DNA from: Ischnura elegans
Taxonomy: Eukaryota; Arthropoda; Insecta; Odonata; Coenagrionidae
Direction of reading: 5' to 3'
Assembly (NCBI RefSeq): GCF_921293095.1
Contig: NC_060257.1
Coordinates: 91,191,449-91,255,448 of the forward strand
Length of the DNA stretch: 64,000 nt
Shown: piece by piece, positions 37,615 through 57,250 of the stretch
Layout: the number at the start of each line of letters is the position of its first letter
How positions within the stretch are numbered: position 1 is the stretch's first letter
Notes under the pieces: model-generated
Seen by the model: only the letters and a program-made list of their open reading frames with translations
Told to the model about the DNA's origin: nothing
The model's database searches: none
Translations under genes and position numbers: made by a program

Positions 37615-37655
37615 GCCGAAGTTTCGATGGTCGTGTCGTCCATCGTCATCAGGGC
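37615..37655 (-). ncRNA. Hammerhead-ribozyme-like motif, copy 1 (degenerate)
   Basis: On the minus strand the order is GCC, CTGATGA, a 5-bp hairpin (GATGG/CCATC, 9-base loop), GAAAC, then TTC where GTC would be expected, then GGC, which pairs with the first GCC. This is the layout of the minimal hammerheads known from Penelope-like elements. One unpaired C follows CTGATGA, and the cleavage triplet is altered, so activity is unlikely. Confidence 0.5.
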
Positions 37656-37666
37656 TTGTCTTTGCG
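37655..37666 (+). repeat. Empty copy of the 12-bp LINE target
   Basis: CTTGTCTTTGCG, identical to the target duplications at 38111-38122 and 46609-46620, here without an insertion. The identity extends leftwards (TCATCAGGG) with the copy at 38101. Confidence 0.75.
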
Positions 37667-38110
37667 AATGAGTGTCACTAATTGTCCGCGCCTAAGGCGC
37701 GTTTATTCCGCTGTACCGGTGAGAACAAACTCACCACAACCAGCCAGCTTACAGAAGAAAATTAAATAAATGGCGCATATGTTGTGTTGTCAGTGTTAGT
37801 AAGAAAATTCAGAGAAAAAGAAAAGCATTTTTATTTTTGTTTTGCATAGTTAGGAATGCATTAAGTAATCCATTTTGATTTTTTTTAAATCTTTTGATAG
37901 TTTTTAATGGATTTAAAAATATATTTTTTTCATCACATTTGGAAATCCAGTTGCAGGTCAAAGGTACCCAAATTAAAAAAAAAACATTTATACCTGTGAC
38001 TGGAAGGAGGTAAGACATAGTAAAGACACATAGACATGAGAATAATTAAGGCAGTGTAATTTGTAATGAATAAAAGTCTGTATTAGTTTTATATTTTGCC
38101 CTCATCAGGG

Positions 38111-38122
38111 CTTGTCTTTGCG
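38111..38122 (+). repeat. Target duplication at 3' end of LINE A
   Basis: CTTGTCTTTGCG directly follows the short-repeat tail of LINE A, read on the minus strand. The same 12 bases occur at the other end of LINE A (46609-46620). Confidence 0.8.
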
Positions 38123-38559
38123 TTCAGTTCAAGTTCAAAAATCGTTTATTCCACGAGAAAAACAATAATAACAAATACATAAACTGTAACAACAAAAACA
38201 ACATCTCGTGGAGCTGGTTTAGGCTTGCGCCTCTTCAGCATTACTGGGTATTTGTCACTGGTACGGGAGTGGTGTTGGCCCGGCATTCGCCCTAAGGAGG
38301 TGGGAAACCCGTAAAACCACCGTCAGACCACCACGGTTCACAATAAAATATATAATAATAAATTCAACAAGATTGTCACCCACGATCCAAGTAGATTACG
38401 TTGGTGACATAACAATAAATATACTCTGAATAAATAAAATAAATAAATGGACAACACACAATAAATAAATAAATTAACATATATATCACTGGATTGGGTC
38501 TGATACCCTTCACTGGAGATCACTGGAACTTAAACTGGAGTCTGTGCTGTCTTTTAGTT

Positions 38560-41532
38560 CTATTCTCTATCTGCCGCCCTTAAGGGACGCACTTGGGGAC
38601 ACATGGGGGGGTCACTGGTATCTTCGGTGATTGTTGGCGTCCTCTTCCTTTTCCTTGTCTTCCTCTTCCGCACGAGTGGGAGTCCAGGGGTGATGGTCAG
38701 AGTCTCTGGAGCTGGTATGGCCGGTCGATTCGTCGGGGTGTGCGGTATTACGACGTCGCGGTGGTAGAGGTGCATGTGGTCGTTGATGAACCTGGGGGCA
38801 GAGTAGAGCTTCTTCCTTTTCCTTTTGATGATGACCCCCTTAGATGTAAGCATGATGTCCTCGAAGAGCCTTGGGTTGTGTACGGAGATCCGCTGGGCCG
38901 CGTTGGTCCTTAGTCTGCATAGTCTGTGGAGGAGAGGTTCAGTATTAGTGGATTCGTATACCCTTCGAGCCTTCGTTCGAGGGTGCAACAGGAAAATCTG
39001 ACGTAAAACTCGTCTTTCAAGTGTGGCGTATTTTCTTAGGGCATTACTAGTCGGGAGGACAGCCAGTGCGGCGTACTCCATGACAGGTCTAATGAAAGCC
39101 TTGTATAGGAGCAGGCCGCACTGTTCTGAGACCCCGCGCCCTCTGGCTCTTACTGCGCGGATTAGGTTACTTCGTCTGTTGCACCTCGACCATACGTTGT
39201 AGACATGCTTCCTGAAATTAAGGTTTTGGTCGATTAAGGTCCCCAGATACGTTGCGGTGTCGGCCCGATGAATTTCTTGTCCCCAGAGGGTGACACTGTG
39301 GTTGTCAAAGTGCTTCTTCGTCGCGGGTTTGATGACTATCAGTTGCGTCTTCTTCGGGTTGGGCCGGATTCTCCAGTCCTTGAACCACCTCTCTAGCCGG
39401 AAGAGCATGGTTTGGACTTTCTTCACTGCCTTGTCGGCCTGCGGGGATATACTCCATAGGGCAGTGTCGTCAGCATATTGGATAACTTCCACTCTTGCGG
39501 TCCTGCGTTGGCAGTTGTGAGTGGGAATGTCGTGGCAGTACAGCGAGAAGAGTAGGGGGGATAGCACAGTGCCCTGAGGGACACCTGCTCGTAGTGGGAA
39601 TGCGGAAGAGAGCTGCGATGCGACTCGTACCTTCGCATTTCTGTTTCTCAGGAAACAGTTAATGAGCCTCAGGATGTCCGGCTCCATCCCGGGCAGCTTC
39701 TCTAGCTTGTACATGAGTCCATCGTGCCACACGCTGTCGAATGCCCTCTCTATGTCCAGGAATAGTGCGGCCGTGTATTGGTTCCTGTTGCTGGCTTCTG
39801 CGGCGGTGCTGGTCAGGAGTGTCAACGGGTCTGTGGTGCATCTGTGAGGACGGAACCCATACTGGAGCTGTGGTAGTCCTCCATTACTCTCCAGGAGATC
39901 CGTCAGTCTCCGGACTACGATCCTCTCGAACCATTTTCCCACGGTGCTGGTCAGACTGATGGGCCGGTAGTTTTCTGCCTTGGCTTTGTCCTTTCCGGGC
40001 TTGGGGATCATCACCATCGTCATTTTCTTCCAAGCCCGGGGGTAGTATCCGAGGGCGAGGGAGGCGTTGAAGATTTTGTTCAGGAGTGGAAGGCACGCTG
40101 GGGCTTTCTGTAGGTGGAGTGTCCGGATGCCATCGTCGCCCGGTGCTTTGTTCTTCCTGGGCCTAGTGTCTTCCATTTCCTCTTCTGATATGTGCTTGAG
40201 TAGTCCTGTGTCCGGCTGGACTGCATCCATCGTCTGCTTGGGTTGCAGGTAACCCCTTTTCCTTACTGCGTGCCTGGTGCAGATCGCAAACTTCTTTTCA
40301 CTGAAGAGGGGGTCGTGCATCGGTGAGTATACATCCTTAAGTACTCGCCGGAATTCCTCTGCTTTTCCTGCCGCGTCTGCTATTGGTTTGTCATCGGGGC
40401 CTTTTAGGGAGACAGGCGTGTTCGTCATCTGGCCTGTGAGTATTTTAAATTTCCGCCAAAATGCCCCTCCGTCCCGGTAGTCCAGTTTCTTGCAGGCGGC
40501 GGCCCATGCCTTCTCTTTCGTCTGGATGACGTTCTGCCTGATGATGGCGTTTTGCCGGTTCCACTCCTGTTTCACAGCTGGGTCTTTGGTTTTAATCCAT
40601 TCCCTGTAGAGCGCCCGTTTTTCTTTTATCCTGCGGACGATATGCGGAGCCAGGGGAGGGCATGCGGTGTCGATCTTCCTCATTGGTATGGCTGCGACTG
40701 CTTCGTGGAAGGCTGCTTCCATTGTTGCTATTGCCTCGTCCACTTCTGCAACTGTGTGGATTTCTTCTGCAGGTGTAGTTTTTTGTCGTACCGTCCCGTT
40801 GAAGGCTTGCCAGTCCACTTTCTTCCAGTCCGGGGTTTCAAAGACGTAGTTCCCACGATGCTTGACCCACCTGAAAGGGAAAGAAAAAGGGAGGTGATCA
40901 GATGTCAGGCAGTCGTCGACGGTGACGTCTCCCACGTAGGGCGAGAGGTCACTCGTTATGAGGGCGTGGTCCGGGTAAGTTGCCCCTCTCCCGATACAGG
41001 TAGGAGAGGGGATGTCCATCCGCACTACGGGACTACGGAGGAGGAAGGATAGAAGTTGTCGTCCTTTTGCGGTTGTGGTATGGTCCCTGAAGGCGAGATG
41101 GCGGGCGTTGAAGTCTCCAAGGATGATGGTGGGCTTCTTGCTATCCACGATGAAGTCCAGGAGCTTCATCGGGAGCGGCGCTTTCGGTCTGCAGTAGAGG
41201 ACGCAAATCTGTATATCTCTACGTCCCAGTCGCACGCTGGCCATCACTGCGTCGTTCCCCTCTGGTATGCAATCCTCCGGGATGTCTGTTGATGATGCCG
41301 CAAGGTCTGAACGGGTCAGAAGGGCGACCCCGCCGGATCGTGGTCGGGCCCTCGGCACGGAGAATTCCTGGAAGCCAGAGATCTTTACTTTAGCGGAGGG
41401 TTTGAGGAAGGTCTCCACCAGTCCCATGATGGCGACCTTCCTGCTCCGTAGGTGTTCTCGGAGCAGTGCCCGTTTCTGAGTCACTGCCCCGTTGATGTTC
41501 AGGAACGACACTCTTGGTTCGGACTTATCCAT
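38560..41532 (-). CDS. LINE A ORF2: endonuclease-reverse transcriptase (990 aa)
   Basis: The frame is uninterrupted. An N-terminal APE-type endonuclease shows N12 in LNINGA, E40 in GLVET, D140/N142 in ILGDFNARH and the C-terminal SDH at 211-213. The reverse transcriptase has NKAPGDDGI (461-469), AENYRPISLTS (519-529), FLDIERAFDSVWH with D593, AGVPQGTVLSPLLF (649-662) and the catalytic QYADD (685-689). A basic, Cys-poor C-terminal region follows. There is no RNase H domain. These features and the ~990-residue length fit the Jockey clade. The protein nicks target DNA and copies its own RNA at the nick. Its ATG overlaps the ORF1 stop (ATGGATAA), pointing to coupled translation. Confidence 0.92.
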   Translation of the reverse strand: MDKSEPRVSFLNINGAVTQKRALLREHLRSRKVAIMGLVETFLKPSAKVKISGFQEFSVPRARPRSGGVALLTRSDLAASSTDIPEDCIPEGNDAVMASVRLGRRDIQICVLYCRPKAPLPMKLLDFIVDSKKPTIILGDFNARHLAFRDHTTTAKGRQLLSFLLRSPVVRMDIPSPTCIGRGATYPDHALITSDLSPYVGDVTVDDCLTSDHLPFSFPFRWVKHRGNYVFETPDWKKVDWQAFNGTVRQKTTPAEEIHTVAEVDEAIATMEAAFHEAVAAIPMRKIDTACPPLAPHIVRRIKEKRALYREWIKTKDPAVKQEWNRQNAIIRQNVIQTKEKAWAAACKKLDYRDGGAFWRKFKILTGQMTNTPVSLKGPDDKPIADAAGKAEEFRRVLKDVYSPMHDPLFSEKKFAICTRHAVRKRGYLQPKQTMDAVQPDTGLLKHISEEEMEDTRPRKNKAPGDDGIRTLHLQKAPACLPLLNKIFNASLALGYYPRAWKKMTMVMIPKPGKDKAKAENYRPISLTSTVGKWFERIVVRRLTDLLESNGGLPQLQYGFRPHRCTTDPLTLLTSTAAEASNRNQYTAALFLDIERAFDSVWHDGLMYKLEKLPGMEPDILRLINCFLRNRNAKVRVASQLSSAFPLRAGVPQGTVLSPLLFSLYCHDIPTHNCQRRTARVEVIQYADDTALWSISPQADKAVKKVQTMLFRLERWFKDWRIRPNPKKTQLIVIKPATKKHFDNHSVTLWGQEIHRADTATYLGTLIDQNLNFRKHVYNVWSRCNRRSNLIRAVRARGRGVSEQCGLLLYKAFIRPVMEYAALAVLPTSNALRKYATLERRVLRQIFLLHPRTKARRVYESTNTEPLLHRLCRLRTNAAQRISVHNPRLFEDIMLTSKGVIIKRKRKKLYSAPRFINDHMHLYHRDVVIPHTPTNRPAIPAPETLTITPGLPLVRKRKTRKRKRTPTITEDTSDPPMCPQVRPLRAADRE

Positions 41533-42994
41533 TGCGGGTGAAAACGTTGGCGTAGCTCGCGGCGTCGTTGCCCCATCCGAAGACCTCTCTGGCTGCCGTG
41601 CGGATGATGGCTGCCAGGGCTCCCCCGTCTCTTGATGGCGACGTCTCCTTGACCACCCTGGTGAAGAACCGTACTACGTCGTTCGTCGTTGCCGGTCTGG
41701 ACGTGTCGGTTTCTGGAACCTGTAAAAGGTCATAGAAAGGGTCGGGGAGATTAGGTGTTACTTCACGCTCCGCCGTCGGACGCTGGGGGCACGTCGGCGT
41801 CGGGGCGTGTGAAGGGGCGGCCATTGGCGACGGGGGCCGCCGTTGGTCGCGCTAGGGGCGTCTCTCCTCTCCGTTGAACTCCCTGGAGACTGGGCGGGGC
41901 GGCTCGCACCGATACCAGCGATTGCCCAGCCAAAGCCCAGTCCTGCACATTTTGTCGCAGACGTCCTGTGCCGGCTGCGTATCTCTGAAGAGGACCCGGA
42001 CGTATCTGGTCCTCCGGTACCGGTAGTCAGTGATCCTCCATGCCTCTACGAACCGGATGCCCATCCTCTCCAGCTTCCGGCCGATCACTTCCACCCTGGT
42101 GGAGAAGGGAACTCCGCACACAACAAAGCATGTGCGGGCAGAATCATTATTAGTCGAATCGGGGTCACGTTGTTTCCTGCTGTCGGGGGGGAAATGCCAT
42201 CGGAGCGGCTCCCCCAGGCGGTGGTCTAGGAGGCGGTATCCGCGCCTGAGGAATTCCATCTCCTTGGCCGTTACATGTACCACAGCCGTGCCCCTGTCAG
42301 TATCTACTACTCCGGAGACTTGGCTGAGTCCCGGGAAAACCGCGCGCCAGGCTTGGGAAAACCCGCGCTGACTGCAGTTCCTAGGGAGGCCCGAAATTTG
42401 GAGGGGAGAGGTCCGTCGTGGTTGCTGGGTAGGTTGGGGTGAGTTGAGGGTTGGTCTCTCGGGGGGGCAGGTGGTAGCAGGTGGGGGGCGTGCTGGGTCC
42501 CCGGATGGAGGCCTTGTCGCATTAAGGCGGACGGTATTGCTCGGGTTTATGGAAGAGGGTTTAACTGGAGTGGCGCGTACCAGAGTAAGCACCGAGGATG
42601 GGGTTGAGGTAGCCGCAGGTTGGATCGGGACAAAGGCGGACTTAGGGGAGGTGAGCAACCTCATGGATGTGTCCTTAAATGGCGAAAGGGAGGACATTGC
42701 AGCGCGGGGGGGAGTGTTGTCCTGCGCAGAGGGCGAGGCAGCATCATCTAGGGGTGCATCCCGACTCACTCGTGCTGACGGCACGCTTGAGCCCGGGGAG
42801 TCTGGTGAATCCTGCAGTGGCGAGGCAGACGGCTCCGCCACCTTGGAAGCACCTTTGCCATCCGGGGGCACGCTGGGCGACTTAACTGTCGAGAGGAATG
42901 GCGGTGGTCCGAGAGATCTTAGGGCGTAACTCCGCAGGGAGCATAGGGAGCTTGGGCGGCGGATGCGGGAGTTTGGGCGCGGGAGCCGGTCCAT
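41525..42994 (-). pseudogene. LINE A ORF1 (gag-like) with one in-frame TAG
   Basis: Two frames listed separately by a stop (42994-41852, 380 codons; 41824-41525, 99 codons) are in the same phase: a TAG at 41852-41854 and nine sense codons separate them. The N-terminal half is Pro/Ser/Arg-rich and low-complexity. Residues around 265-370 (CFVVCGVPFSTRVEVIGRKL, YVRVLFRDTQ) resemble the RRM/PRE_C2HC-like part of Jockey gag proteins. The end, IIRTAAREVFGWGNDAASYA, resembles the end of LINE B ORF1 (ILDNAARDVLGYSVKTVYSW). No CCHC zinc knuckle is present anywhere, although LINE B has three. The TAG is one change from CAG. Confidence 0.75.
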
Positions 42995-43499
42995 CCCTAG
43001 GCTTGCCCAGGCCCGTTGTCGGTGCCTGGTCCCCGGGAGGCGGGGCAGTCCAAGGAAAGTGGCCGATAGGCGGTTCTTTAGATAGCGGTTGTCGTGACGC
43101 GGCTAGTAGATACAGTTGCTACTTTAAAAGAGGTCACGATATGTCGCAAAGTGCGTTGCTAAGTGAGAGTGAAGTAAAATCAAGGATGGAATAGTAAGAC
43201 TTAGGCTGTATAAGCTGGGTACTGAAGCTAATGCACTAAGAGTGAGTGAACAGGTGAAATGAAGGTCGAATAAGATGGGGTTGAAAACAAGTAGGGGACT
43301 GAAGCTAATGCACTAAGATTGAGTTACTTGTGAGGTGAGAGGTGAGGCTAAGTTGTGGTGATAGGAAAAGGGCTCTTATACCCCTTTCGCCCTAACCAGT
43401 TTGGGGAACGCTGCGGGCTCTTATGCCCGGTACACTTAACCTTGAAAGGCTCTTATACCTTTCGGTGTTAACCTTGCGGTATACTCAGTTCGCTAGTAG
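42995..43499 (-). promoter_or_regulatory. LINE A leader next to ORF1, with repeat block copy 1
   Basis: The ORF1 frame stays open upstream of its ATG to a TAG near 43103, so the first ATG (42994) was taken as start. The block 43353-43535 (GGGCTCTTATACCCCTTTCG, AACGCTGCGGGCTCTTATGC) is repeated at 43776-43955. Confidence 0.5.
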
Positions 43500-45240
43500 A
43501 GTGTAGAAGTTAAAAATTGACTAAGTCCGGAGATAAGAAAATAAACTAAGTCCAAGTGAAGTTAGAAATTGACTAAGTCCGGGGAGAAGAAAATAAACTG
43601 AGTCCAAGTGAAGTTAAAAATTGACTAAGTCCGGGGAGAAGAAAATAAACTAAGTCCAAGTGAAGTTAAAATTGACTAAGTCCGGAGAGAAGAAAATAAA
43701 CTAAGTCCAATTGAAGTTAAAATTGACTAAGTCCGGGGAGAAGAAAATAAGCTAAGTCCAAGTGAAGTTAAAATTGACTAAGTTGTGGTGATAGGAAAGG
43801 GGCTCTTATACCCCTTTCGCCCTAACCAGTTTGGGGAACGCTGCGGGCTCTTATGCCCGGTGCACTTAACCTTGAAAGGCTCTTACCCCTTTCGGTGTTA
43901 ACCTTGCGGTGTACTTAGTTCGCTAGTAGAGTGTAGAAGTTAAAATTGACTAAGTCCGGAGATAAGAGAATAAGCTAAGTCCAAGTGAAGTTAAAATTGA
44001 CTAAGTCCGGGGAGAAGAAAATAAACTAAGTCCAGGTGAAGTTAAAATTAACTAAGTCCGGGGAGAATGAGTTAAAATTGACTAAGTCCGGAGAGAAGAA
44101 ATAAACTAAGTCCAAGTGAAGTTAAAAATTGACTTAATCCGGAGATAAGAAAATAAACTAAGTCCAAGTGAAGTTGGAAATTGACTAAGTCCGGAGGGGA
44201 AAAGATGGGCTAAGTGCCCAAGCTCGAAATTGACTAAGTCCGGAGAGAGGAAAATAAACTAAGTCCAAGTGAAGTTAAAAATTGACTAAGTCCGGAGAGA
44301 AGAAAGTAAACTAATTGTAAGTCCAAGTGAAGTTAAAATTTGACTAAGTCCGGAGATAAGAAAATAAACTAAGTCCAAGTGAAGTTAAAAATTGACTAAG
44401 TCCGGGGAGAAGAAATTAAACTAAGTCCAAGTGAAGTTAAAATTGACTAAGTCCGGGGAGAAGGAATAAACTAAGTCCAAGCGAAGTTAAAATTTACTAA
44501 GTCCGGAGATAAGAAAATAAACTAAGTCCAAGTGTAGTTAAGAAATTGACTAAGTCCGGAGATAATAAAATAAACTAAGTCCAAGTGAAGTTAAGAAATT
44601 GACTAAGTCCGGAGATAAGAAAATAAACTAAGTCCAAGTGAAGTTGGAAATTGACTAAGTACGGAGGGGAAAAGATGGGCTAAGTGCCCAAGCTCGAAAT
44701 TGACTAAGTCCGGAGATAAGAAAATAAACTAAGTCCAAGTGAAGTTAAAAATTGACTAAGTCCGGGGAGAAGAAAATAAACTAAGTCCAAGTGAAGTTAA
44801 AATTGACTAAGTCCGGGGAGAAGGAATAAACTAAGTCCAAGCGAAGTTAAAATTTACTAAGTCCGGAGATAAGAAAATAAACTAAGTCCAAGTGAAGTTA
44901 AGAAATTGACTAAGTCCGGAGATAAGAAAATAAACTAAGTCCAAGGGAAGTTAAAATTGACTAAGTCCGGGGAGAAGAAAATAAACTAAGTCCAAGTGAA
45001 GTTAAAAAATTGACTAAGTCCGGGGAGAGGAAATAAACTAAGTCCAAGTGAAGTTAAAATTGACTAAGTCCGGAGAGAAAATAAAGTAAGTCCAAGTGAA
45101 GTTAAAAATTGACTAAGTCCGGAGGTGAAAAATGGGCCCAAGTTCGAAACTGACTAAGTCCGGAGAGAGGAAAATAAACTAAGTCCAAGTGAAGTTAAAA
45201 TTGACTAAGTCCGGAAGAAAGAAAAGAAACTAAGTGCGAA
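43500..45240 (-). repeat. Tandem repeat array, unit about 52 bp, in LINE A 5' region
   Basis: More than 25 units, each built from two related halves: GACTAAGTCCGG(A/G)GAGAAG and AACTAAGTCCAAGTGAAG. A larger pattern is also visible: the variant with GGGGAAAAGATGGGCTAAGT occurs at 44196 and again 470 bp later at 44666, with a shorter relative near 45121. A 180-bp block without the unit is duplicated at 43353 and 43776. The array lies upstream of ORF1 on the coding strand, so it may be a multi-monomer 5'UTR/promoter region. Confidence 0.9.
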
Positions 45241-45879
45241 CCAACCGCGGACTTACTGCTGGAGAGAGGCTCTTATGCCAACTCCCACACGATGATCTTC
45301 TTCTGAGAGCGCGCTTAGATTCGAAGAGTGTAAGTCCGTAAAAGGCCCTCTTTGGGTCCTTTTTCGGTTTGGGTGGCTGAAGGCCCTGGTGTCAGGTCCC
45401 CCCCTGACGGGGGAGGGCCGCCTAGCGCTGTGTTGTCCCCCCTACCCCAGTGTGCCTATTGGACTACTTGCCCGCAGACAAGCAGAGAAGCCCCGACGAT
45501 GAGCTGCCCCACGGCTGGAGAACCCACCGCACGTTACGTGGGCGCCGTATGTGTTTGTGATGGGGAGTTTCCTTCGGCTGCCAACGAGTGCGTTAGCGTG
45601 CAATGACTCGGGAGTCAGGGACTCTCACTCTATGGCCGACGAGTGCGTCGGGGTAGATCGGATGAGAGGTTTTGCGTGTACCAGCCGGCGATTGGAGGAC
45701 CGAACCCTCTCCACTAGCAGACTTCACTTGGGCAGATACTAGTTCCCCCGGGCGGGGGAATGCCCCTGCAGTCACAAGGGTGCAAACTTTGGGTTACCCG
45801 TAGGGCCCGCAGAAAGTTCCTTGCACTGGCCTAAAAGAGACAGGAGAGAAAATGGCCCCGAAGAGGACCAAGTAGCCGG

Positions 45880-46387
45880 GGAGAATAGGCTGGTGGTGAC
45901 TCCCTCCTCCTGGTGGTGGACTTCCTTCCTTCCTAGTCCTGTCCTTAGGTTGGTGGTCTGCCTTCCTGGTCCGGTCCTTGGCTCCTAGCCTTCGGTCGCG
46001 ACTAGCGCTTCCTCAGGCGGTTTCCCTTGGTGGCGCTGTTGTCCTCCTTCCTTGGTTGGTCCTGGCTCTTGTCCCCTGTGGAAGAAGGTTAGTCGGTCGG
46101 ACCGACCGTATAGGCCCTTAAAAGGACCTTAAGCAAAGGAGAATAGGCTGCCTCCCTCCTCCTGGTGGTGGACTTCCTTCCTTCCTAGTCTGGTCCTTAG
46201 GCTGGTGGTCTTCCTTCCCTGTCCGGTCCTTGGCTCGTAGCCTTCGGTCGCGACTAGCGCTTCCTCAGGCTGTTTCCCTTGGTGGCGGTGTTGTCCTCCT
46301 TCCTCGGTCGGTCCTCGCTCTTGTCCCCTGTGGAAGAAGGTTAGTCGGTCGGACCGACTGTGTAGGCCCTTAAAAGAACCTTAAGCA
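45880..46387 (-). repeat. Two direct repeats of about 255 bp in LINE A 5' region
   Basis: 45880-46137 and 46138-46387 are near-identical in order (GAGAATAGGCTG, TGGTGGTGGACTTCCTTCC, GTAGCCTTCGGTCGCGACTA or a variant, GGAAGAAGGTTAGTCGGTCG, CCCTTAAAA, CCTTAAGCAA). A fragment of a third unit follows to about 46420. Together with the 52-bp array this suggests a modular 5' region. Confidence 0.85.
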
Positions 46388-46608
46388 ATGGAGATTGGTG
46401 GTAGGTGGGTTAGCCCGAGATGGACTCTCCCTCCTTGGCACGCCTTGGCGGCTGTCCTCGGTTGCGGCAAGCGCTTCCTCGGACGGAACCTCCTTGGCGG
46501 GTGTTGTCCTATCTCCTTGACGCGGGTCGTCGACGGTACGCTCGCCTCCTTGCCGCTGTCCCTCGATGAGCTGCTCCTCGGTGATCCTCTCGGCGAAGTC
46601 TCCCTCTT

Positions 46609-46620
46609 CTTGTCTTTGCG
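46609..46620 (+). repeat. Shared target duplication between LINE A and LINE B
   Basis: CTTGTCTTTGCG lies exactly between the 5' end of LINE A and the 3' tail of LINE B. Two insertions at one site should leave three copies of the target, and three copies are seen (38111, 46609, 49135). Confidence 0.85.
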
Positions 46621-49134
46621 TCAATTTCAATTTCAAAAGCGTTTATTTCCAATGCTGCCAGTGTACATGAATATTTACATAGTATTGGTAATATATATAT
46701 AGACATATTTACAGCATGAACCCCGTTATAGGACATTTTTCCTCTTCAGGGCTTGTCATTGGTATTTTAGTTTACAGATGTTTGTGAGCTTGTAGCAGCA
46801 TTGTCATACAGATTTTGCTGGAACTCTTTTCCTCCGGGATGGCTTTTGGTCTGACATTCGTCCGAGACGTGAGGGAAACCGGCAAAACCCCACGTAGACC
46901 GCCGTGTACATGGTGCTGATGAGTGTTGATGTTGCAGCAGAAGTCAAGTGGTGTCTGGAAGGCGTTATCCTGGTGTCCTTTGCTTAGCCGGTGTGGAGTG
47001 CTGTAATTTTACAGATCGGAATTAATATACAATATAATACAATAGAGCAAGCACTAGGTTGTTATTGGGCATTTTGATATATATACAAGTGAATAAATAT
47101 ATTATTTATTTACATGATAAGCAAATCGTTTATGGTCATTGTCATTTTCATTTGTATATTTATTTACATGCCATTCGTCAGAGTTAAGATAATTATCAGG
47201 CTTTATTTTGCTTTACATATTTACATTTAATTTTAATAGATGAATGAGCTTTATTTCAGGATATTTAATTTGAGATTACTTAGGACAAGATAGGAAAGGA
47301 AGTCAGTTAAGTCCTGGGCCAAATTGGCGTTAAATTTATGCAATTTAGGTTCATATTAAGTAAAGTATTCAAATTGATATTATTGAATAGGTGAAACTAA
47401 ATTTGTTTAACAAATATTTCTTGGTATCCGTAATGCAGATAAAGTCAAAGGTCATGCATATGAATTTGAAAGTAGGATTTGTAAGATGAAATTTGTGCAT
47501 AGAAATTTAACTTTAAGTATTGATGTATTTGATTGAAGTTATTGGTTCCTGGATTAAAGATTAAATTTGAGATAGTTCACCACAATTGAGGACCTTAGAT
47601 GTTCATATTACTGAGTTTACTTTAATTTAAATTGAATTTAATAGCACATAAAATGATATTCAAATAGAGAGCAAGTTTACTGATTGCCGTAAGGGCCAGC
47701 AGTGCGATAGGATTTAAAATTAATTTATGTAAGAAAATGGAATTTTGCTCATCCGTCTATCTTCTGCACCGCCGCCAGCTGCTGCTTCCATGAGTAGACC
47801 GTCTTCACGGAGTACCCAAGGACATCACGCGCCGCGTTGTCTAGGATGTTGGCCACTTCTGCTCTCTCCTGCGGGTGCAGGTTGGCCACGAGGAGGCTCA
47901 GGAGCCGCAGGAGGTCGTCCTTGGTGACGAGGGACTCGGATGCCGGACCTGGAGAGGGGAGAGAAGCGCAAGACGTTAGTGGAACAGTTTGCGCCAACCC
48001 TTCCGGCTTAGCCGGTCGCACGGGGCATTTCCAGTCCCCGGCGTGATGCCTTCCTGCGCAGTTGGCACATTTCAGACACTCCGCCTCGCAAGTTGCGGAG
48101 CGATGGCTCGCTCCACACCTTGCGCATCGAAGGTCCTTCGTGCACCTGTGTGTCGGGTGGTCGAAACCCTGACACCTGCGGCATTGGGCGGGTTGGCAGC
48201 GTGGCGGATGGGAGGGCTCTACTCGGAACCGTTTGCCAAAGGCAATCAGTCCGTCGTGCAGGAGCCGCTGCGCCGTGTCTGCGTCTCTCGTGATGACCCT
48301 CATCAAGGTGGTTGGTTGGCCGGTCCTTCGGGCGGTGATCCTCATCACCCGGATGCAGCGAAGACCGGCGAAGACCGGCGAAGCCCAGTGCCTCCTTGAT
48401 GTCTGCCTCCGTAGTCGTCCTGTCCACGCCGCGCACCACAACTGAAAAGGAGGAAAGAGAGGGGCGGTTAGTTGTTGCCGGCCGAGCGGTCGAGCGCCGC
48501 ACGTGTGCAGCGCACGGCTCGCCCAGCCGGTGGCTCAGCTTCTTAATCTCCTCCGCACTCTCGAAGAGGCTGCCATACGCCGCTGGGATGCGGAGCATGG
48601 CGCGTCTCTCTTGCGAGAATACGGAGACCTCTGCCGTGCGGAGAGAAGGGAAGGTAGAGGTCAAGGCGGAGAAGAAGGATTTCTGGGTAATGGAAGCGGG
48701 AAGATTACTAATGAACACCGAAGTGTCATTAGCAGGTGGTTTGGAGGCGGCAGAGGTTGAAGGAGTCGGGTGTCGTTGGGTTGGGGTTTGGGAGGGGGAG
48801 GGAAAGGGTGAGAGTTCGGTGTCGGACGCCGTGTCCGATTGGTACGAGACGTCCGATGGCGTGTCCGGGGGTGGGCTTGGCTGCGGCGGCGGAGCAGGAG
48901 CGGGGTTGGCGGACTTCTTCTTCGGGACGATACCGGTCACCTTGGCTCGTCCTTTCCTTCCTGGAGGGCCAACTTTCAGCCAGGACACGCCTTCGTAAGG
49001 GTCCTTAGACGCCTCATTCCGGTCGCGCCCCGGAGTACTCGTTGCCCCGCTTGTCGCTGGCGTTCGGCTTCCTTCCTTCCCTCCTTCCATCCTTCCTTCC
49101 TTCCCAGGCTGCTAGGCTGCTTGGCTGCTCTCTT
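46621..49134 (-). mobile_element. LINE B: gag-only, RT-less partner of LINE A
   Basis: About 2.5 kb between 46609-46620 (CTTGTCTTTGCG) and 49135-49146 (CATGTCTTTGCG, one mismatch). Minus-strand order: a very short leader, ORF1 with CCHC knuckles, a stub of ORF2 (about ten codons starting at an ATG that overlaps the ORF1 stop), then ~1.1 kb of 3' region ending in AATAAACGC and TGAAAT repeats. The tail and the block at 46740-46915 resemble LINE A. The 5' start (AAGAGAG) also resembles that of LINE A (AAGAGGG). It looks like a deletion derivative that needs an RT in trans. Confidence 0.8.
47749..49090 (-). pseudogene. LINE B ORF1: gag-like protein with CCHC knuckles, frameshifted
   Basis: The first frame (49090-48008) starts MEGGKEGSRTPATSGATSTP and contains VFISNLPASITQKSFFSALT and FSVVVRGVDRTTTEADIKEA, as in the RRM-like core of Jockey gag proteins. 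The second frame (up to 48441, ending 47749) continues with SPVFAGLRCIRVMRITARRT and three zinc knuckles: CRRCQGFDHPTHRC, CARCGASHRSATC and CANCAGRHHAGDWKC. The switch falls at a 10-bp tandem duplication (GAAGACCGGC twice, about 48360-48382), which shifts the frame. Without it the protein would be about 445 residues. The knuckles are expected to bind element RNA. Confidence 0.85.
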
Positions 49135-49146
49135 CATGTCTTTGCG
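49135..49146 (+). repeat. Target duplication at 5' end of LINE B
   Basis: CATGTCTTTGCG differs by one base from the other copies. To its right the sequence is the 3' flank of the PLE endonuclease gene. Confidence 0.75.
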
Positions 49147-49181
49147 TTGAGTGATCCCACTTATATAGTATGGGCTCCTAG

Positions 49182-50047
49182 TCAGGTGACTTGTGATTGG
49201 TCCGCCTTTTCCCGCCTTTTTTCCCGGGCCTCGCTGACGAATTTAAGCACCGGTTTCCAGGAGTTGCTTAGGGCGTAACCAGCATCACGGTTCATGGTGT
49301 TAGTCGTCGTTCGAATTTCGATAGCTTCCTTGGTCAGCCTTTCCCAGAATCTGTCCACACGGCACAGGACCTTCGTGTTCTCCCAGCAAATGGCATGGTC
49401 GCGTGATATGCTGTGCTCAGCCAAGGCGGATTTTTCGGGTTGGCCGAGCCTGAAATGCCGCTGGTGTTCCTTCATCCTGGTGGCGATAGTCCTTCCCGTC
49501 TCACCGACATACACCTGGCCGCATTCGCATGGAATCTGGTAGACCCCTGGTTTCATGAGGCCGCAGGGATCCTTGGCAGTCACTATTTGTTTTCTAAGTT
49601 TTGCAGGTGGGCGAAAATATGTTTTAATATCATACCTCTTGAGTATTCTAGCTATTTTGCATGAAACGGTCGAGACGAAAGGTAGGCCAGCAAATGCTAT
49701 TGGTTTTTCTCCTTCTTCTTTGGTGGCGGTGTGGTGGTTCGTGAAGGCCCTTTTCAGGGCCTTGGAAATGTCTCTTCCGTTGTGGCCATTCTGCCGGAAG
49801 GTCTTCTTCAGATGAAGTAACTCCTTGGGGAGACTCTCTGAATCACAAATTGGTTTGTCCTGATGGATTAGGGTGGACAAGACTGCTGCCCTTTGGGAAG
49901 GATGATGATGACTTCGGCCGTTAAGATAGAAGTGTGGGTCGGCTTCCGATAGACGCTATGCCCTAATCTTCCATTTCCCTTCCGATAGATGAGTATGTCA
50001 AGGAAGGGTATCCTGTTGTCTTTTTCCGTCTCCATGGTGAACTCTAT
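49182..50047 (-). pseudogene. PLE C-terminal part: RT end plus GIY-YIG endonuclease
   Basis: The first part (minus, from 50047) encodes IEFTMETEKDNRIPFLDILI and YRKGNGRLGHSVYRKPTHTS, the conserved post-palm region of Penelope RTs. A one-base loss near 49921 shifts the frame. The second part (49880-49182) continues STLIHQDKPICDSESLPKEL, a linker with FRPPAKLRKQI, and the endonuclease GVYQIPCECGQVYVGETGRT with R and E-H in ATRMKEHQRHF. This is the GIY-YIG nuclease found at the C-terminus of PLE proteins. It ends KADQSQVT. The protein cannot be made whole because of the frameshift and the upstream insertion. Confidence 0.88.
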
Positions 50048-50996: not shown

Positions 50997-51360
50997 AAAT
51001 AAGATACTCTCTCTCTAAAGTACTGGAGAACCAAGGTAATGCCTTTTGGTCCTTGGTTCAATGAAAGGAAAATCCTGATGATCACCTCCTCGTGGTAGAG
51101 AGGGGGCAACGTTATTAAAAACGGCTAACGACACAGGGACCGAGTATCTCCCGGGATAAGGAGACCCCCCCTGTCAAAGCCAACAACCTCTGTAGAGGAT
51201 GGATGAGCGGACAGGGGTTAGGGCACCCTCTTGCCCTTGGAATGGGAAATCATTCCAAAAGGCGGATGAACCCACCAGGTCAACGGCATAGGATGCGGAA
51301 GGCAAGGGGAAACCACCGCATTAAAGACCCTTACGGTATCCCTAGTCCCACTGGACTACA

Positions 51361-51375
51361 ATGAAAGCATGGTGA
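51361..51375 (+). promoter_or_regulatory. Four-codon upstream ORF overlapping the LINE C start
   Basis: ATGAAAGCATGGTGA encodes MKAW and a stop. The main ATG (51369) lies inside it in another phase, so ribosomes would have to scan past or reinitiate. This may limit translation of the ORF. Confidence 0.5.
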
Positions 51376-54341
51376 TTCCTGAGAATAAGAAATATTCCGG
51401 AGTAATATGCCCACATTCGGATCTCCGGGTGGGCACTATCCCAGGAGAACTGTGTGGTTTGAAAGAGAGGAGAAAGAAGAAGGGAAAGGTAACATCAGCA
51501 TTGAGAATAGGAACATGGAATGTCAGAACAATGAATAGGAAAGGGAAGTTGGAAAATGTGAAGAAAGAAATGGTGAGACACAACATCAGTATTCTAGGAT
51601 TAAGTGAAGTAAGATGGGAAGGAGAAGGAGAATTTGATTCAGGAGATTATAAGATTATTTATAAGGGAGGGGAATCTAAGGAAAATGGAGTCGGGTTGAT
51701 ATACAGAAAGAATTTGGAGAGAAATATAACAAAAGTTATGCCAGTAAGCGATAGAGTAGTGGCTATCAAGATACTGAGTGAGCCAGTAGATACATTAATT
51801 ATCCAAGTGTACTTGCCAACATCAGATGCAGAAGAAGAAGAGATTGAACGGATATATGAGCAAATAGAGGAAATATATGAAGAAAATGGAAAAGGCAAAG
51901 TAAGAACTATAATGATGGGAGATTGGAACAGTGTAGTGGGGAATGGAAGAAGGACGAATGTAGTTGGAGATTATGGACTTGGAAGTAGAAATGAAAGAGG
52001 AGAAAAATTGATAAATTTTTGTGAGCGCTTGGAGTTATGGATTGCAAATACTTGGTTTAAAAATCATAAAAGAAGGTTGTACACGTGGAAAGCACCTGGA
52101 GATATTTCAAGATATCAGATAGATTTTATTATTGTCAATCAAAGGTTTAAGAATAGTGTTGAAATGGCAAAAACCTACCCAGGAGCAGATGCTGACTCTG
52201 ACCACAATCTTCTAGTTACTGATATAAGAACACGATTGAAGCTTGTTAAGAAAGGGAGGTTGATAAGGAAATGGGATGTAATAAAGCTGAAAAATGAGAA
52301 GAATGAAGCATATAATAAAAATGTTGAGAAAAAATTGGAAGATGTAAGACAAAGTAATGAGGTATCAGAGGAATGGAATAACATTAGGGATGTAATATGG
52401 GAAGTCTTAGAAGAAGAAGTTGGTGTTGTACAAAAGGAAAGAAATAGGAAGGAATGGATCACTCAGAGCATGATAGATAAAATGGAGGAAAGGAGAAAGT
52501 GGAAAAATGTTCACACTGAAGAAGGAAAAGGGCAATATAGGAAACTTAACAATGAACTACGAAGATTAACTGATAAGGCAAGAGAGGAGTGGATGGAGAG
52601 AGAATGCGAAAAGATGGAAGTCCTAGAAGAACAAGGGAGATTGGAAGAAATGTATAAAACAGCTAAAAAGTTCACAAAAAGAGAGCCAAAGAAAATAAGT
52701 AAACAAGGAATGTTAAATAAATACGGAAAGATAACAACAGGTGTTGAGGAAAACAAAAACATATGGAAAGAATATGTGAAAGAACTATATGATAGTAAAG
52801 ACGATCATTCTGAGATGGAGCTGGAAGAGGAATGGGAATGTGAAGAGGTGAATAGAGGACCAAACATACTGAGAAGAGAAGTGGAAAAGGCAATCAAGGA
52901 TCTCAAGGAAAGGAAAGCAATGGGATGCGATAGAATACCATCAGAAGCATTAAAGAACCTAGGTAACAATGCAATGAGTCGATTAACAAATTTAATCAAT
53001 AGGATATATGATACCGGGAGCTGGCCTGATGATCTACTTAAAACTATTCTAATACCAATACCAAAGAAATGTAATGCCAAAGAATGTAAAGACTATAGGA
53101 CAATTAGTCTTATATGCCATGTTACCAAAGTAATTACAAGGATTATATTAAAAATAATCGAAGGAAGAATTAAAGAAAATATGGGAGAAGATCAATTTGG
53201 ATTTAGAAAGGGTAAAGGGACTCGTGATGCAATAGGATGCTTGAGGATGATAGGAGAAAGAATGATGGAAGTGAATAGAGATTTGTACATTTGCTTTATT
53301 GATTGGGAAAAGGCATTTGATAAGGTTAATTGGAATGTGTTATTGAAAATTTTGAAAGACATTGGCATTGATTGGAAAGATAGGAGATTAATAAAGGAGA
53401 TGTATTGTAGGCAGGTAGTAGTTATAAAAATTGGAGATGATGAAACAGAAGAAATTGGCATAGGAAGAGGAGTGAGGCAAGGGTGCTGCCTTTCTCCAGA
53501 GCTCTTCAATGCTTATGCAGAAAAAATGATGGAGAAAGCTTTAGAAAAAGCTAGAGGAGTTGTAATAGGAGGAGAAAGAATAAAAACAATTAAATATGCA
53601 GATGATCAGGCAGTGCTGGCAGAAAGTGAAGAAGATTTACAACAAGTGATGGATGATATAATGGATGTGGGGAGGGAATTTGGAATGAACTTAAACATAA
53701 ATAAAACCAAGGTGATGAGAATCAGCAGAAAAGAAGGTTGTGTTTGTATATCCTTAGAAGGAAATATCATACAGCAAGTACAGACTTTCCAATATTTGGG
53801 AAGTCTGGTAAGATGGAATGGAAGTTGTACTGAGGAAATAAGAAGAAGGATATCAATAGGTAAAGGAGCGTATGGAAAGGTAAAAGCATTGTTAACAGCA
53901 AAAAGAATTCCAATAGAGATGAGGAAGAGGTTTATGAAATGTTTTGTGTGGAGTGTAGTGTTGTACGGATGTGAATCATGGACTGTTAAAAAGAAGGAGG
54001 AGAGATATTTAGAAAGTTTTGAAATGTGGGTATGGAGACGAATGTTGAAAGTGAAGTGGACTGACAGAGTGAAGAATGAGGAAGTTCTAAGAAGAATAGG
54101 CGAGGAAAGAAAATTAATACATATGATTCATAAGAGGAAGGCAAGTTGGTTAGGGCATATATTAAGAAGGAATTGTTTGGAACGGAGAATAATAGAAGGG
54201 AAGATAGATGGAAAGAGAGGAAGAGGAAGAAGGAGGATGGGAATGTTGGATGATATAAGAAGAGGAAGAAAATACAAAGACCTAAAGGAGGATGCTCAGG
54301 ATAGAGAAAGATGGAGAGAAGTCCAGTGGAAACCTGTCTAA
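51369..54341 (+). CDS. LINE C ORF: endonuclease-reverse transcriptase (990 aa)
   Basis: One uninterrupted frame. The APE-type endonuclease has N51 in GTWNVRT, E80 in LSEVRW, D185/N187 in GDWNSV and D278-H279 in SDHN. The RT shows KAMGCDRIPSEAL (516-528), KDYRTISLICHVTKV (574-588), GFRKGKGTRDAI (611-622), D645 in FIDWEKAFDKVNW, GVRQGCCLSPELFNAYAEKM (701-720) and the catalytic YADD (743-746). The C-terminal part has FQYLGSLVRWNG, VLYGCESWTVKKKE, FEMWVWRRMLKVKW and SWLGHILRRN, followed by a Lys/Arg-rich end. The residues needed for nicking and copying appear present. This family is often annotated as craniofacial development protein 2-like or RTE-type. The upstream ATG at 51369 was kept because the frame is open from it. 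Confidence 0.93.
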   Translation: MVIPENKKYSGVICPHSDLRVGTIPGELCGLKERRKKKGKVTSALRIGTWNVRTMNRKGKLENVKKEMVRHNISILGLSEVRWEGEGEFDSGDYKIIYKGGESKENGVGLIYRKNLERNITKVMPVSDRVVAIKILSEPVDTLIIQVYLPTSDAEEEEIERIYEQIEEIYEENGKGKVRTIMMGDWNSVVGNGRRTNVVGDYGLGSRNERGEKLINFCERLELWIANTWFKNHKRRLYTWKAPGDISRYQIDFIIVNQRFKNSVEMAKTYPGADADSDHNLLVTDIRTRLKLVKKGRLIRKWDVIKLKNEKNEAYNKNVEKKLEDVRQSNEVSEEWNNIRDVIWEVLEEEVGVVQKERNRKEWITQSMIDKMEERRKWKNVHTEEGKGQYRKLNNELRRLTDKAREEWMERECEKMEVLEEQGRLEEMYKTAKKFTKREPKKISKQGMLNKYGKITTGVEENKNIWKEYVKELYDSKDDHSEMELEEEWECEEVNRGPNILRREVEKAIKDLKERKAMGCDRIPSEALKNLGNNAMSRLTNLINRIYDTGSWPDDLLKTILIPIPKKCNAKECKDYRTISLICHVTKVITRIILKIIEGRIKENMGEDQFGFRKGKGTRDAIGCLRMIGERMMEVNRDLYICFIDWEKAFDKVNWNVLLKILKDIGIDWKDRRLIKEMYCRQVVVIKIGDDETEEIGIGRGVRQGCCLSPELFNAYAEKMMEKALEKARGVVIGGERIKTIKYADDQAVLAESEEDLQQVMDDIMDVGREFGMNLNINKTKVMRISRKEGCVCISLEGNIIQQVQTFQYLGSLVRWNGSCTEEIRRRISIGKGAYGKVKALLTAKRIPIEMRKRFMKCFVWSVVLYGCESWTVKKKEERYLESFEMWVWRRMLKVKWTDRVKNEEVLRRIGEERKLIHMIHKRKASWLGHILRRNCLERRIIEGKIDGKRGRGRRRMGMLDDIRRGRKYKDLKEDAQDRERWREVQWKPV

Positions 54342-54378
54342 GGACAGTAATCACTGATGATGATGATGAAATAAGATA

Positions 54379-56115
54379 AGAACATTAACAGAAACCACGG
54401 ACTAATATGTAGTAATTTTACTTTTCATGAGAGTTGCACCATCGATAACATCTGCATTAAAACAAATCATTGAAAGAGGTATTAAAAAGGAAACAAAATT
54501 CAGATTTTTCCAACTTATATAATGTAGGTACACACACATCAAATCTTCATTTCCTGAATGAATACACAACTCTATTGGAACTGAGATTATTTATACAATC
54601 AATGCAAAGTAATCTAATGAAAATTAAATTTTAAGTACACAACATGTAGCATTTATATTAAAACAGATTCAAATTAGAAAGAATGATGAAAGCCATCGCA
54701 CATCTTGCTTTTTCTCAATTTTACTTCGTTCCTCCAATTTCAATGACAGTGACCACTGGAATAGCAGAACCTGTAATTTAAAATATGTATAAATTGTGCA
54801 GCTTTAGCACACCAAAAAAAGGAATCAATGAACAGCATCTACGCGTGCTATATCAAATGCTCAGTATCACCAGACATGATACAGTTCGAGCTCTGTAACT
54901 CTGATCTGTAACCTCTGTGTGTTTATTAAACATCCAATCACTTAAATTTTTTCGGGTTTCCCACCGGATGATGTTCTCCATCTCTGCCGACGATTCGATG
55001 GTCGTGTCGTCCATCGTCATCAGGGCTTCATCTTTCATGGTTTGCGCGACAGGAAAACGAAGTCTGAGCAAATTCAATTAGCAAACAAATTCCTGCAAAT
55101 TAATTCTGATTCAAAGATGGCTATCTCCCGGCCAATACTGTCTGCCGGAGGTCCCCCTTCTTCAGCTTTAAAGCACTTATCCCATGTTAGTCCGCCGGAC
55201 ATAGCATACATCCATCACAACTATAGGAAGACAAAATAGAGAAGGTATTATCGTATTATGCTACATTCAATATTCCAACATGAAATAAAACAGACTTACG
55301 CATTAACCAAAATAATATATAACTACAACTATATTAAACTATTCTATTACTCAATCATTACCTTCGTAAACTTTCTGGCTACTGGAACAAATTAACATTT
55401 TAAAACTTACCAAATAGCAGAATAGGTTGATGAAAGTCATGGTCCAAAGGATTACAATTCATATCCTCAACATTAATGTAAATCATCATCAGAAAAAATC
55501 CAAACATCACCGTTATACCTCCGTGGAATGCTTCTTAGATATCCTTCCGTCGCTATAATTAAACAAAATAATTTTCAAGGTAAGATGAAACGATAAAAAT
55601 TTCTGGATGGAAATAATATTTATAAAGGAAACTCAGAATGGCTGTGAATTTATGTAAATCAAACCTACCGATAGAAACATTCTCAATAATTAAGACGTGA
55701 TTTCAAAACCAGAAAACAGGTCAGGGAAACCTTCAAGTCAATCTTCATGACAGCCTCAAATTACTGACCCTCATCACACTGATGAGAACCAACTATGCTT
55801 CTCAAACAACACGTTCATGGAACACATCATTCATATTCCTCGAGTACTACATCCAATGCCTCTAAAAAGCGAAATCCCCGAAGTCTTGTGTCATTACCAG
55901 TGGTGCAACATGGTACCACACACGTCCACGGCATTTTCCTTTTTTCAGTAAATCTACTCTATATATCCACGAAATATTGATGTAGAACAATAAGGAAATA
56001 ATGCATAAAACTAGCATACGAAAATAAATGAAAACTAAATCTAAATTAATTACTAATATCACCATTTCCATTTACCTGTAGCACGCTCTCAACGATAAGG
56101 AAATGAACTTACCCG
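54379..56115. other. AT-rich body of the insertion, PLE motif only
   Basis: No coding region is supported. 54948-55036 is a PLE terminus fragment; the rest is unassigned. GTAAGT next to the inverted repeat (minus strand, about 56107-56112) has the form of a splice donor, as in PLE leader introns, but this is weak. Confidence 0.5.
54986..55026 (-). ncRNA. Hammerhead-ribozyme-like motif, copy 2 (degenerate)
   Basis: Minus strand: GCC, CTGATGA, the same GATGG/CCATC hairpin as copy 1, then GAATC (the conserved GAAA is damaged), GTC cleavage triplet intact, GGC pairing with GCC. Copy 1 has the reverse pattern: intact GAAA and damaged triplet. Confidence 0.5.
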
Positions 56116-56240
56116 CTAATGCTTGCCCTCCAGGATAGGTGGCGCAGCCCCGGCAAATGTGCGGCAGGTTGAGGAAACGACTTCAATAATAGACCATGGG
56201 CGTGGAGTGGGATAGGGAGTGTCATTGGGCTGGTTGGGGT

Positions 56241-57090
56241 GCTGGCTATTCATATGATCTAAAAAATGGTTGAGCGTATCCGGTCCGTGTGGCCAAACGA
56301 TGAAGGTATCATCAACGTACCGGAAAAAACATTTCGGCCACAGGGGGGCAGTGGCGAGAGCCTTTTCCTCGAAGTCCTCCATGAAGAAGTTTGCAATTAG
56401 CGGGGAGAGTGGCGATCCCATGGCGACTCCGTCGGCTTGCTCGTAGAATTCTCCGTCATACTTGAAATATGTAGTCGTTAATGCGTGATGAAAAAGTCTC
56501 ACCGTGTCACTTTCAAACTTGGATTCCAGCAGACGCAGCGTATCCCGTACAGGCACTCGGGTGAACAGAGACACTACGTCAAGGCTTATCATTATGTCGT
56601 CTCCACCAAGTTGAATATCTGCAAGAGTGTTAACGAACTCTGATGAATTCTTGATGTGGTGATCACAGTTGCCTACATGCGGTGATAAGATGTTCGTGAG
56701 AAATTTCGCGACGTTATAGGTGGGTGATCCAATGGCGCTCACGATTGGCCTCAGAGGCGCCCTCCTTGTGGATCTTTGGCAGACCGTAGAGCCTTGGAGG
56801 TGCGGGTGCTGGAGGATGCAGATTCTTGGTGGTGTCCGTGGGAAGGCTGCAACTCTTGATCAAAGCGATCGTTTTCCGGGTGACGGAGTCTGTGGGATCG
56901 CGGTGAATTTTCCGGTATGCCTGGTCCCGTAGAATATCCAGTATCTTTTGGTGGTAATCTTCAGTGTTCATCAGGACGGTAGCGTTTCCCTTGTCAGCTG
57001 GCAGAACTTTGATCGCCTTGTTCCTCTGTAGCGCACGAATGGCGGCTTGCTCGTTTCTGCTGATGTTTGCTTTCGGCTTGAGGCTAAATT
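56241..57090 (-). pseudogene. PLE N-terminal part: Penelope reverse transcriptase core
   Basis: The minus strand encodes NISRNEQAAIRALQRNKAIK, VLPADKGNATVLMNTEDYHQ and PPRLYGLPKIHKEG, the conserved start of Penelope RTs. A frameshift (two bases lost near 56750) leads to IVSAIGSPTYNVAKFLTNIL, then D55 (numbering from the ATG at 56742) in MISLDVVSLFTRVPV, DGVAMGSPLSPLIANFFMED and the catalytic YVDD at 142-145. The frame then runs FLDHMNSQHPN into the insertion, which adds an unrelated end and a stop at 56116. The sequence before about 57090 has stops in this frame, so the 5' part is missing or degenerate. Confidence 0.88.
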
Positions 57091-57250
57091 TACTTAGTTA
57101 AGTCGGAGAAGATGTTTCCTCAGACGACGTGAAACATATCCTTCGTGTACCGTTATACTATGGTAGACGTGATCACGAGAAGAAAATGAAAGAAATTTAC
57201 GACAGAACAGAGAGATTTATAAATCTCGTTCTTTCTCCTTGGGGGGACTA

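Follow-up and report, generated by a model that had tools for sequence, protein, structure and literature searches.

We analyzed a window of 64,000 nt from the insect Ischnura elegans (NC_060257.1; G000:C12:91191449-91255448), in which one Penelope-like element (PLE) holds two long interspersed nuclear elements (LINEs), LINE A and LINE B, in head-to-tail arrangement, with the same 10–12 bp on the borders of each. The genome searched comprises 1,722,721,009 bases in 110 contigs; the evidence comes from this single genome, and its genome-wide repeat counts are lower bounds, many of them based on "first-look candidates" of which a subset was scored. In the direction of the PLE, the locus contains the following features:

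49185-49955, minus strand: 3' part of the GIY-YIG-like endonuclease open reading frame (ORF) of the PLE that hosts the insertions (translation; uninterrupted PLE copy L166)
49160-49167, minus strand: TATA box of the PLE, TATATAAG (same box in L166 and in the genome pattern search)
between the TATA box and the first copy of the target-site duplication (TSD), minus strand: spacer TGGGATCACTCAA
49137-49146, minus strand: first TSD copy, CGCAAAGACA; transcription start predicted near its last A from the distance to the TATA box
46621-49136, minus strand: LINE B
46609-46620, minus strand: second target copy, CGCAAAGACAAG, between LINE B and LINE A
38123-46608, minus strand: LINE A
38102-38122, minus strand: third target copy, CGCAAAGACAAGCCCTGATGA, 21 bp, including the start of the hammerhead core
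37667-38101, minus strand: third insert, the repeat X
37646-37666, minus strand: fourth target copy, again CGCAAAGACAAGCCCTGATGA, the right border of X
37615-37655, minus strand: hammerhead core of the PLE (by eye)

Repeated insertion at one site of a PLE

A Pfam search of the host ORF (49185-49955) gave no match; we take it to be a PLE endonuclease because of a GETGRT-type motif recognized by eye and the comparison with L166 (G000:C1:4326900-4327500). This PLE copy without insertions, for which an earlier note on the window had proposed to search, reads TATATAAGTGGGATCACTCAACGCGAAGACAAGCCCTGATGACG. The endonuclease side of the window matches it at 93%, ending at L166 base 265, and the match of the hammerhead side (91%) begins at base 256, so that the two window flanks overlap by 10 bases on L166, as a TSD would. 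Because L166 matches both flanks, everything between them was inserted and about 10 bp were duplicated; the reverse order, a PLE inserted beside LINE tails, is rejected for the window on the same grounds. The join in L166 bears out the proposal of the earlier note that LINEs entered one site of a PLE repeatedly; this site lies directly upstream of the PLE hammerhead. The first T of the PLE TATA box lies 21 nt before the TSD start as written, or 20 nt if an ambiguous A is assigned to the TSD.

The earlier note had started from a 12-mer, CTTGTCTTTGCG, of which there are exact copies at 37655, 38111 and 46609 and a copy with a single mismatch at 49135. Its copies at the borders of the two LINEs were confirmed. 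As a bare motif, it does not stand out: when up to 2 mismatches are allowed, it has 8 matches in the window (5.15 expected), and the genome contains 146 exact matches vs. 94 for the reversed pattern; the significance of the copies is their position at the edges of the two LINEs, not the frequency of the motif. The copy at 37655, which had been regarded as unoccupied, is not an empty site. It is the far border of insert X, which is flanked by the 21-bp direct repeat CGCAAAGACAAGCCCTGATGA on both sides, and since this copy lies within the second repeat, the same PLE continues across B, A and X. X may share the target of LINEs A and B, in view of the 21-bp repeats and of the PLE hammerheads found in 2 of 19 other X 3' flanks.

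The inserted elements

LINE A consists of a long 5' region with a tandem array, ORF1 (41855-43102), ORF2 (38560-41532) and the tail TTGAACTTGAACTGAA; its 5' end in the window is about 20–25 nt shorter than in other full-length copies. The array (43507-45250) is built from repeats of about 51 bp (AAATTGACTAAGTCCGG...). ORF2 is open and encodes 990 amino acids with an apurinic/apyrimidinic (APE) endonuclease and a reverse transcriptase (Pfam: RVT_1, 2.3e-36; Exo_endo_phos_2, 6.6e-14; Exo_endo_phos, 6.2e-9). Pfam detected no RNase H family in ORF2 and no family in ORF1, in which a regular expression for zinc knuckles also found none. The closest relative of ORF2 overall is an unnamed metagenome protein (54%), and the nearest named relatives are X-element-like (33% identity) and BS-like (32%) proteins, which we take to belong to the Jockey clade; a search of viral contigs revealed no relative of ORF2. 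With both enzymes in one ORF, LINE A is, judged by its predicted protein, an APE-type LINE that is Jockey-like by its nearest names. TSDs in 23 of 48 flank pairs and many 5'-truncated copies show the hallmark of target-primed reverse transcription. A second subfamily, A2, was found by an ORF2 search (mostly 71–74% protein identity); 3' ends were fetched for 13 A2-like copies, and to 7 of these a 5' flank could be assigned. By eye, one LINE A copy (L100, G000:C7:36537990-36538170) has a 3' flank that resembles LINE A ORF2, which suggests a nested or chimeric copy.

LINE B has an AT-rich 3' region. Its ORF1 is gag-like and occupies two overlapping frames (48011-49111 and 47752-48534), of which the second holds three zinc knuckles (regular expression). 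No Pfam family was found in LINE B and no ORF2 was seen, that is, it is gag-only. Other LINE B copies are continuous from about position 610–630 to the 3' end, also without ORF2; five of those have one subtelomeric flank in common and are probably duplicates of one insertion. The loci with an identical 3' flank (L040, L041, L044, L045, L046) lie near the ends of C19, C5, C1 and C7, and probably represent one insertion that was apparently spread by subtelomeric duplication. The 3' motif AATAAACG..TTTTGAA is common to LINE A and LINE B, which suggests that one reverse transcriptase serves both. The 3' end of X, for which the genome contains 589 first-look candidates, likewise carries AATAAACG.

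Hammerhead motifs at LINE A insertion sites

The window hammerhead was read by eye and presumably has the usual anatomy (CTGATGA, stem II CGATGG/CCATCG, GAAAC, UUC|GGC); an Rfam scan of the window found no hammerhead. In its minimum-energy fold, stem II is formed and stem I is not, and a second copy (54976-55046) forms both. This second PLE hammerhead (54944-55028) is 93% like the first and lacks the TATA box and the target sequence of the window PLE; a fragment of a PLE-like reverse transcriptase lies nearby (56119-57097, with RVT_1 at 56119-56859).

The earlier note suggested that the LINEs target the ribozyme-bearing end of PLEs, a claim to be checked by listing the bases that follow other LINE 3' ends. 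For LINE A, 40 of 426 first-look candidates were scored, and for LINE B 40 of 510. The 37 LINE A 3' flanks comprise 30 loci and 7 further ones, including three loci that probably represent one histone H3 insertion; of the 30 LINE B flanks, at least five are subtelomeric duplicates, and four belong to matches that stop short of the 3' end. A regular expression for hammerheads matched 10 of the 37 LINE A flanks, 1 of the 30 LINE B flanks and 17 of 5908 background windows; a stricter pattern matched 6/37, 1/30 and 4/5908, respectively, as well as 1/30 flanks of a control LINE described below. The reported expression misses four further LINE A flanks that resemble cut or decayed hammerheads by eye (L009, L099, L103, L104). 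The hammerheads at the LINE A sites differ and belong to several PLE families, and these sites are thus not one duplicated insertion. The recurrence of LINE A at hammerhead-bearing PLE ends was therefore upheld. The hammerhead as such is not the target: insertions are not confined to PLEs, as 27 of the 37 LINE A flanks lack a match, and hammerhead-free sites, including histone H3, H4 and H2B genes, were entered. A role of the hammerhead as guide was rejected because of the many sites without one. The 12-mer was also dropped as a target motif, since the other sites have unrelated sequences.

In the genome, 3710 copies of TATATAAG are followed by CTGANGA 25–34 nt later, vs. 207 for the reversed pattern (the pattern allows 33–42 nt from the TATA start to the core). 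Owing to this short spacing in PLEs, the hammerhead appears to be placed beside the start site by PLE architecture, and in these 3710 units it would form the extreme 5' terminus of the transcript. Altogether, the genome holds 87,806 copies of TATATAAG, of which the PLE-hammerhead units make up 4.2%, compared with 10/37 LINE A 3' flanks (P = 2e-6, a rough value because the hammerhead definitions differ). A hammerhead share above the approximately 4% expected from the bare TATATAAG favours promoters in use over sequence alone.

A TATA-like box upstream of the nick

TSDs were regarded as supported at a duplication score of at least 9, and a TATA-like box was defined as at least 7 of 8 matches to TATAWAWR. 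The 41 A/B flank pairs leave out copies with a 5' end beyond the DNA read, plus L045, L057 and L061 (duplicate or split matches). Supported TSDs were found in 16 of these 41 pairs and in 7 of 7 A2-like pairs, compared with 1.4% of mismatched A/B pairs; their length is about 8–16 bp. There was no visible consensus at the nick over the 16 A/B sites, and the duplicated bases vary from site to site, that is, no single conserved nick sequence of the R1/R2/Tx1 type was found.

The mean TATAWAWR score over the 23 sites, by contrast with these nicks, peaks at −20 from the nick (5.57) and is at most 3.57 outside of the range from −22 to −17. A TATA-like box starts within this range at 13 of the 23 sites, compared with 2.19 ± 1.35 for random offsets (maximum 8 in 5000); at a score of 6 or higher, there are 19 sites vs. 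5.21 ± 1.91. The 13 boxed sites are distributed over both sets (10/16 A/B, 3/7 A2) and over PLE and non-PLE locations (4/5 and 9/18). Thus, at most of the sites where a TSD is supported, the first nick follows a TATA-like box at a distance of about 20 nt. In the boxed sites, the TSD ends +28 to +36 from the start of the box, mostly +30 to +34, values that are in part set by the choice of the −22 to −17 interval. A TATA box is expected to direct initiation about 30 nt further on, and the TSD would therefore end where transcription should begin, with the start predicted from the TATA distance.

A very young LINE in the same window served as control:

51010-54370, plus strand: control LINE with a hepatitis delta virus-like ribozyme at the 5' end and a (TGA)n tail

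The ribozyme matches Rfam RF02682 at 32 bits, below the gathering score of 44, and its P1 partner near 51010 was recognized by eye. At the 3' end, 40 of 41 matches have 100% identity (40 candidates scored of 493), and at the 5' end, 29 of 40 matches are complete at 98–100%. One copy (L107, G000:C7:69056750-69056850) is followed by a hammerhead. Among 20 control flank pairs, the TSD could be resolved for all except 6; of the 14 resolved pairs, 4 scored below 9 and 10 passed. None of 9 control sites has a TATA-like box in the range from −22 to −17 (Fisher P = 0.0033 vs. 13/23), and none of 10 when one passing site, left out because of its little upstream sequence, is restored. Hence, a fixed distance to a core promoter element was found at 13 of 23 sites vs. 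0 of 10 in the control, with the other 10 of the 23 falling short.

A second comparison made use of 58 A/A2/B 5' flanks, a set that leaves out L075 (no motif) as well as L089 and L091 (duplicates of L090); for L070 and L076, the start of the element was set anew, and L096 was included manually. TATAWA occurs in the last 75 nt of 22 of the 58 flanks, compared with 3.1 ± 1.6 in shuffles of their own sequences; for the control LINE, the corresponding values are 4 of 20 and 2.3 ± 1.2.

Orientation, truncated copies and host genes

The directional TATA boxes point with the LINE. In the 58 flanks, TATA[AT]AA occurs 14 times on the LINE sense strand and twice antisense, and TATATAAG eight times and never, respectively. 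Truncated copies, which are not selectable for expression, still have TATAWA in 12 of 30 cases, and thus selection for expression is not needed to account for the boxes; an origin of the TATA signal solely by selection of expressed copies is unlikely.

Outside of PLEs, three LINE A loci (L014, L015, L016) lie 31–35 nt before the start codon of histone H3. The H3 frames are open at L014 and L016, with Pfam support for L014, and broken at L015; the three loci are probably one insertion in a duplicated histone cluster. Another LINE A copy (L017) lies 58 nt before the start codon of a gene that we take to be histone H4 from its sequence; the Pfam histone model scored below the cut-off. An A2 copy (L192) precedes histone H2B. 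In a subtelomeric repeat, a short ATG frame begins 27 nt after a LINE B copy; this frame is not an annotated gene, and no frame of 50 codons was found there. In addition, a LINE A copy (L022) and a LINE B copy (L060) each lie in front of the 5' end of another LINE B. Full-length copies have variable leaders of about 4–36 nt between the TSD and the shared 5' sequence (by eye).

Proposed target preference and alternative explanations

Taken together, we propose, with a probability of roughly 0.8, that LINE A, A2 and LINE B, which is gag-only, select their targets, with a preference for TATA-box core promoters of RNA polymerase II (Pol II), and take these over.

Several observations weigh against this proposal. 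No duplication reached the threshold in 25 of the 48 flank pairs; 10 of the 23 sites with TSDs score below 7 and 4 below 6, and the site L070/L189 combines a clear duplication with the lack of a TATA box. The A2 set, which is smaller and later, is positive but weaker when taken alone (3/7 at a score of 7, 5/7 at a score of 6). The looser threshold discriminates poorly, as 4 of 10 control sites also reach a score of 6. The presence of TATAWA as such in flanks of 60–70 nt (20–22 of 58) does not set the LINEs apart from the AT-rich control (4 of 20, in flanks that stop about 10 nt short of the junction; P = 0.12–0.18). The looser, near-palindromic pattern TATA[AT]A[AG] occurs 19 times in sense and 12 times in antisense orientation. 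Hammerhead matches in the 3' flanks of LINE B (1/30, including four flanks from matches that stop short of the 3' end) and A2 (1/13) are weak alone, and matches were also seen for the control LINE (1/30, L107) and X (2/19, L202 and L207). By comparison with uninterrupted units, L107 would have entered about 18 nt after a PLE TATA box, hinting that PLE start sites attract other LINEs, and, given X and L107, these sites may be a general hot spot for LINEs. Furthermore, TATAWAWR was chosen after the first flanks had been seen, the transcription starts are placed by their distance from the TATA box, and one genome underlies all results.

Among the alternatives, the one that best survives is that the LINE endonuclease itself recognizes TATA-like DNA from its sequence or bend and cleaves at a distance of about 20 nt, so that promoters would be entered only for their TATA boxes. 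The TATA-like box is indeed the sole shared sequence seen, and recognition of DNA by sequence and shape is known for LINE endonucleases. However, an offset of 20 nt is long for an APE-type endonuclease, several histone genes were entered, and the hammerhead share of the LINE A flanks is far above the 4.2% of TATATAAG copies that belong to PLE-hammerhead units. We therefore consider this explanation unlikely. Still less probable is that DNA at the start sites of PLEs and histone genes is open, often single-stranded and available to any LINE reverse transcriptase, with no dedicated targeting: while L107 and the two X copies upstream of PLE hammerheads would fit, the control LINE has no TATA-like box at the critical distance (0/10 vs. 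13/23), and its TATAWA count is near that of its own shuffles. A specialization on the ribozyme-bearing PLE end, with all other insertions as errors, is very improbable, since the enrichment of hammerheads over background (10/37 for LINE A, 1/30 for LINE B and 1/13 for A2 vs. 17/5908) in several PLE families is opposed by the 27 LINE A flanks without a match, by the 9 of 18 non-PLE sites with a TATA-like box at −22 to −17, and by duplicated bases that differ between sites.

A possible mechanism and its implications

Under the preferred reading, a selection of Pol II core promoters, the endonuclease would be placed by something that measures the distance from the TATA box, most simply the TATA-binding protein (TBP) or the initiation complex, and might cut at the edges of the initiation bubble, at about −11 and +1. 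If the template strand were nicked about 10 nt upstream of the start and a second cut made at about +1, the TSD would equal the bubble. The TATA box and one copy of the initiator would stay directly 5' of the LINE, a full-length copy would take over the promoter, and the next LINE could reuse the same TATA box. Such reuse would explain the head-to-tail stacking in the window, with B next to the TATA box, then A, then X; LINE B, being nearest to the box, is probably the latest arrival. The stacks at L022 and L060 are also predicted by repeated use of one TATA box. The variable leaders are expected if each copy is transcribed from a different captured promoter, although they are suggestive only. 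PLEs would often be entered because they supply thousands of TATA promoters, and the hammerhead would be a bystander at the 5' end of the predicted transcript.

In its most specific form, the proposal states that the Pol II initiation complex itself is the target, with the template strand nicked at the upstream edge of the bubble and the other strand cut at +1. A full-length insertion would then steal the promoter, its own RNA would start at or next to its first base, promoters would collect head-to-tail stacks, and the variable 5' leaders would be relics of captured initiators. We give this version about even odds.

If the proposal is true, these LINEs represent a natural RNA-templated insertion system aimed at promoters, and a LINE that inherits its promoter may be able to do without an internal one. 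The accumulation of the same parasite in Penelope elements and histone genes would also be explained, and initiation sites in a non-model insect could be read from sequence. In the titles and abstract openings of the open-licence literature, we found no description of a LINE that measures its distance from a Pol II TATA box.

Comparison with known systems

The X-element-like and BS-like elements share with LINE A the combination of an APE endonuclease and a reverse transcriptase in one ORF. They are distant relatives and, to our knowledge, are not regarded as specific for TATA boxes or start sites. Tx1L of Xenopus, R1 and R2 are also sequence-selective LINEs, and Tx1L enters another transposon; however, their endonucleases read a fixed target, whereas here the nicks vary and the distance to the TATA box recurs. 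The Drosophila elements HeT-A, TART and TAHRE, of the Jockey clade, resemble the present system in several respects: a gag-only partner accompanies a reverse transcriptase-bearing element, the copies form head-to-tail arrays, the promoter lies outside of the transcribed element, and the 5' additions are variable. In contrast to the insertions described here, which occur with TSDs at internal TATA promoters, they extend chromosome ends.

For PLEs, PMC3846280 describes a putative TATA box and an initiator-like sequence in the pLTR of a rotifer Penelope. The remaining parallels concern RNA polymerase III (Pol III; PMC5911963). The long terminal repeat (LTR) element Ty3 integrates at the Pol III transcription start site and interacts with TFIIIB (PMC5911963); insertion at the start site, here a predicted one, is common to both systems, but Ty3 is an integrase-based LTR element that uses Pol III genes. 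The nearest mechanistic parallel is the non-LTR element TRE5-A of Dictyostelium, the ORF1 protein of which interacts with TBP, Brf1 and Bdp1 (PMC5911963), and which targets Pol III-transcribed tRNA and 5S genes, inserting about 40–54 bp upstream of tRNA genes in the opposite orientation. Like LINE A, TRE5-A is an APE-type LINE, and it is guided to an initiation site at a fixed distance, as is proposed here; in the present case, the targets would be Pol II-type TATA promoters, and the insertions lie at the predicted start and in the same orientation. Pol III promoters are already known as targets of LINE and LTR elements.

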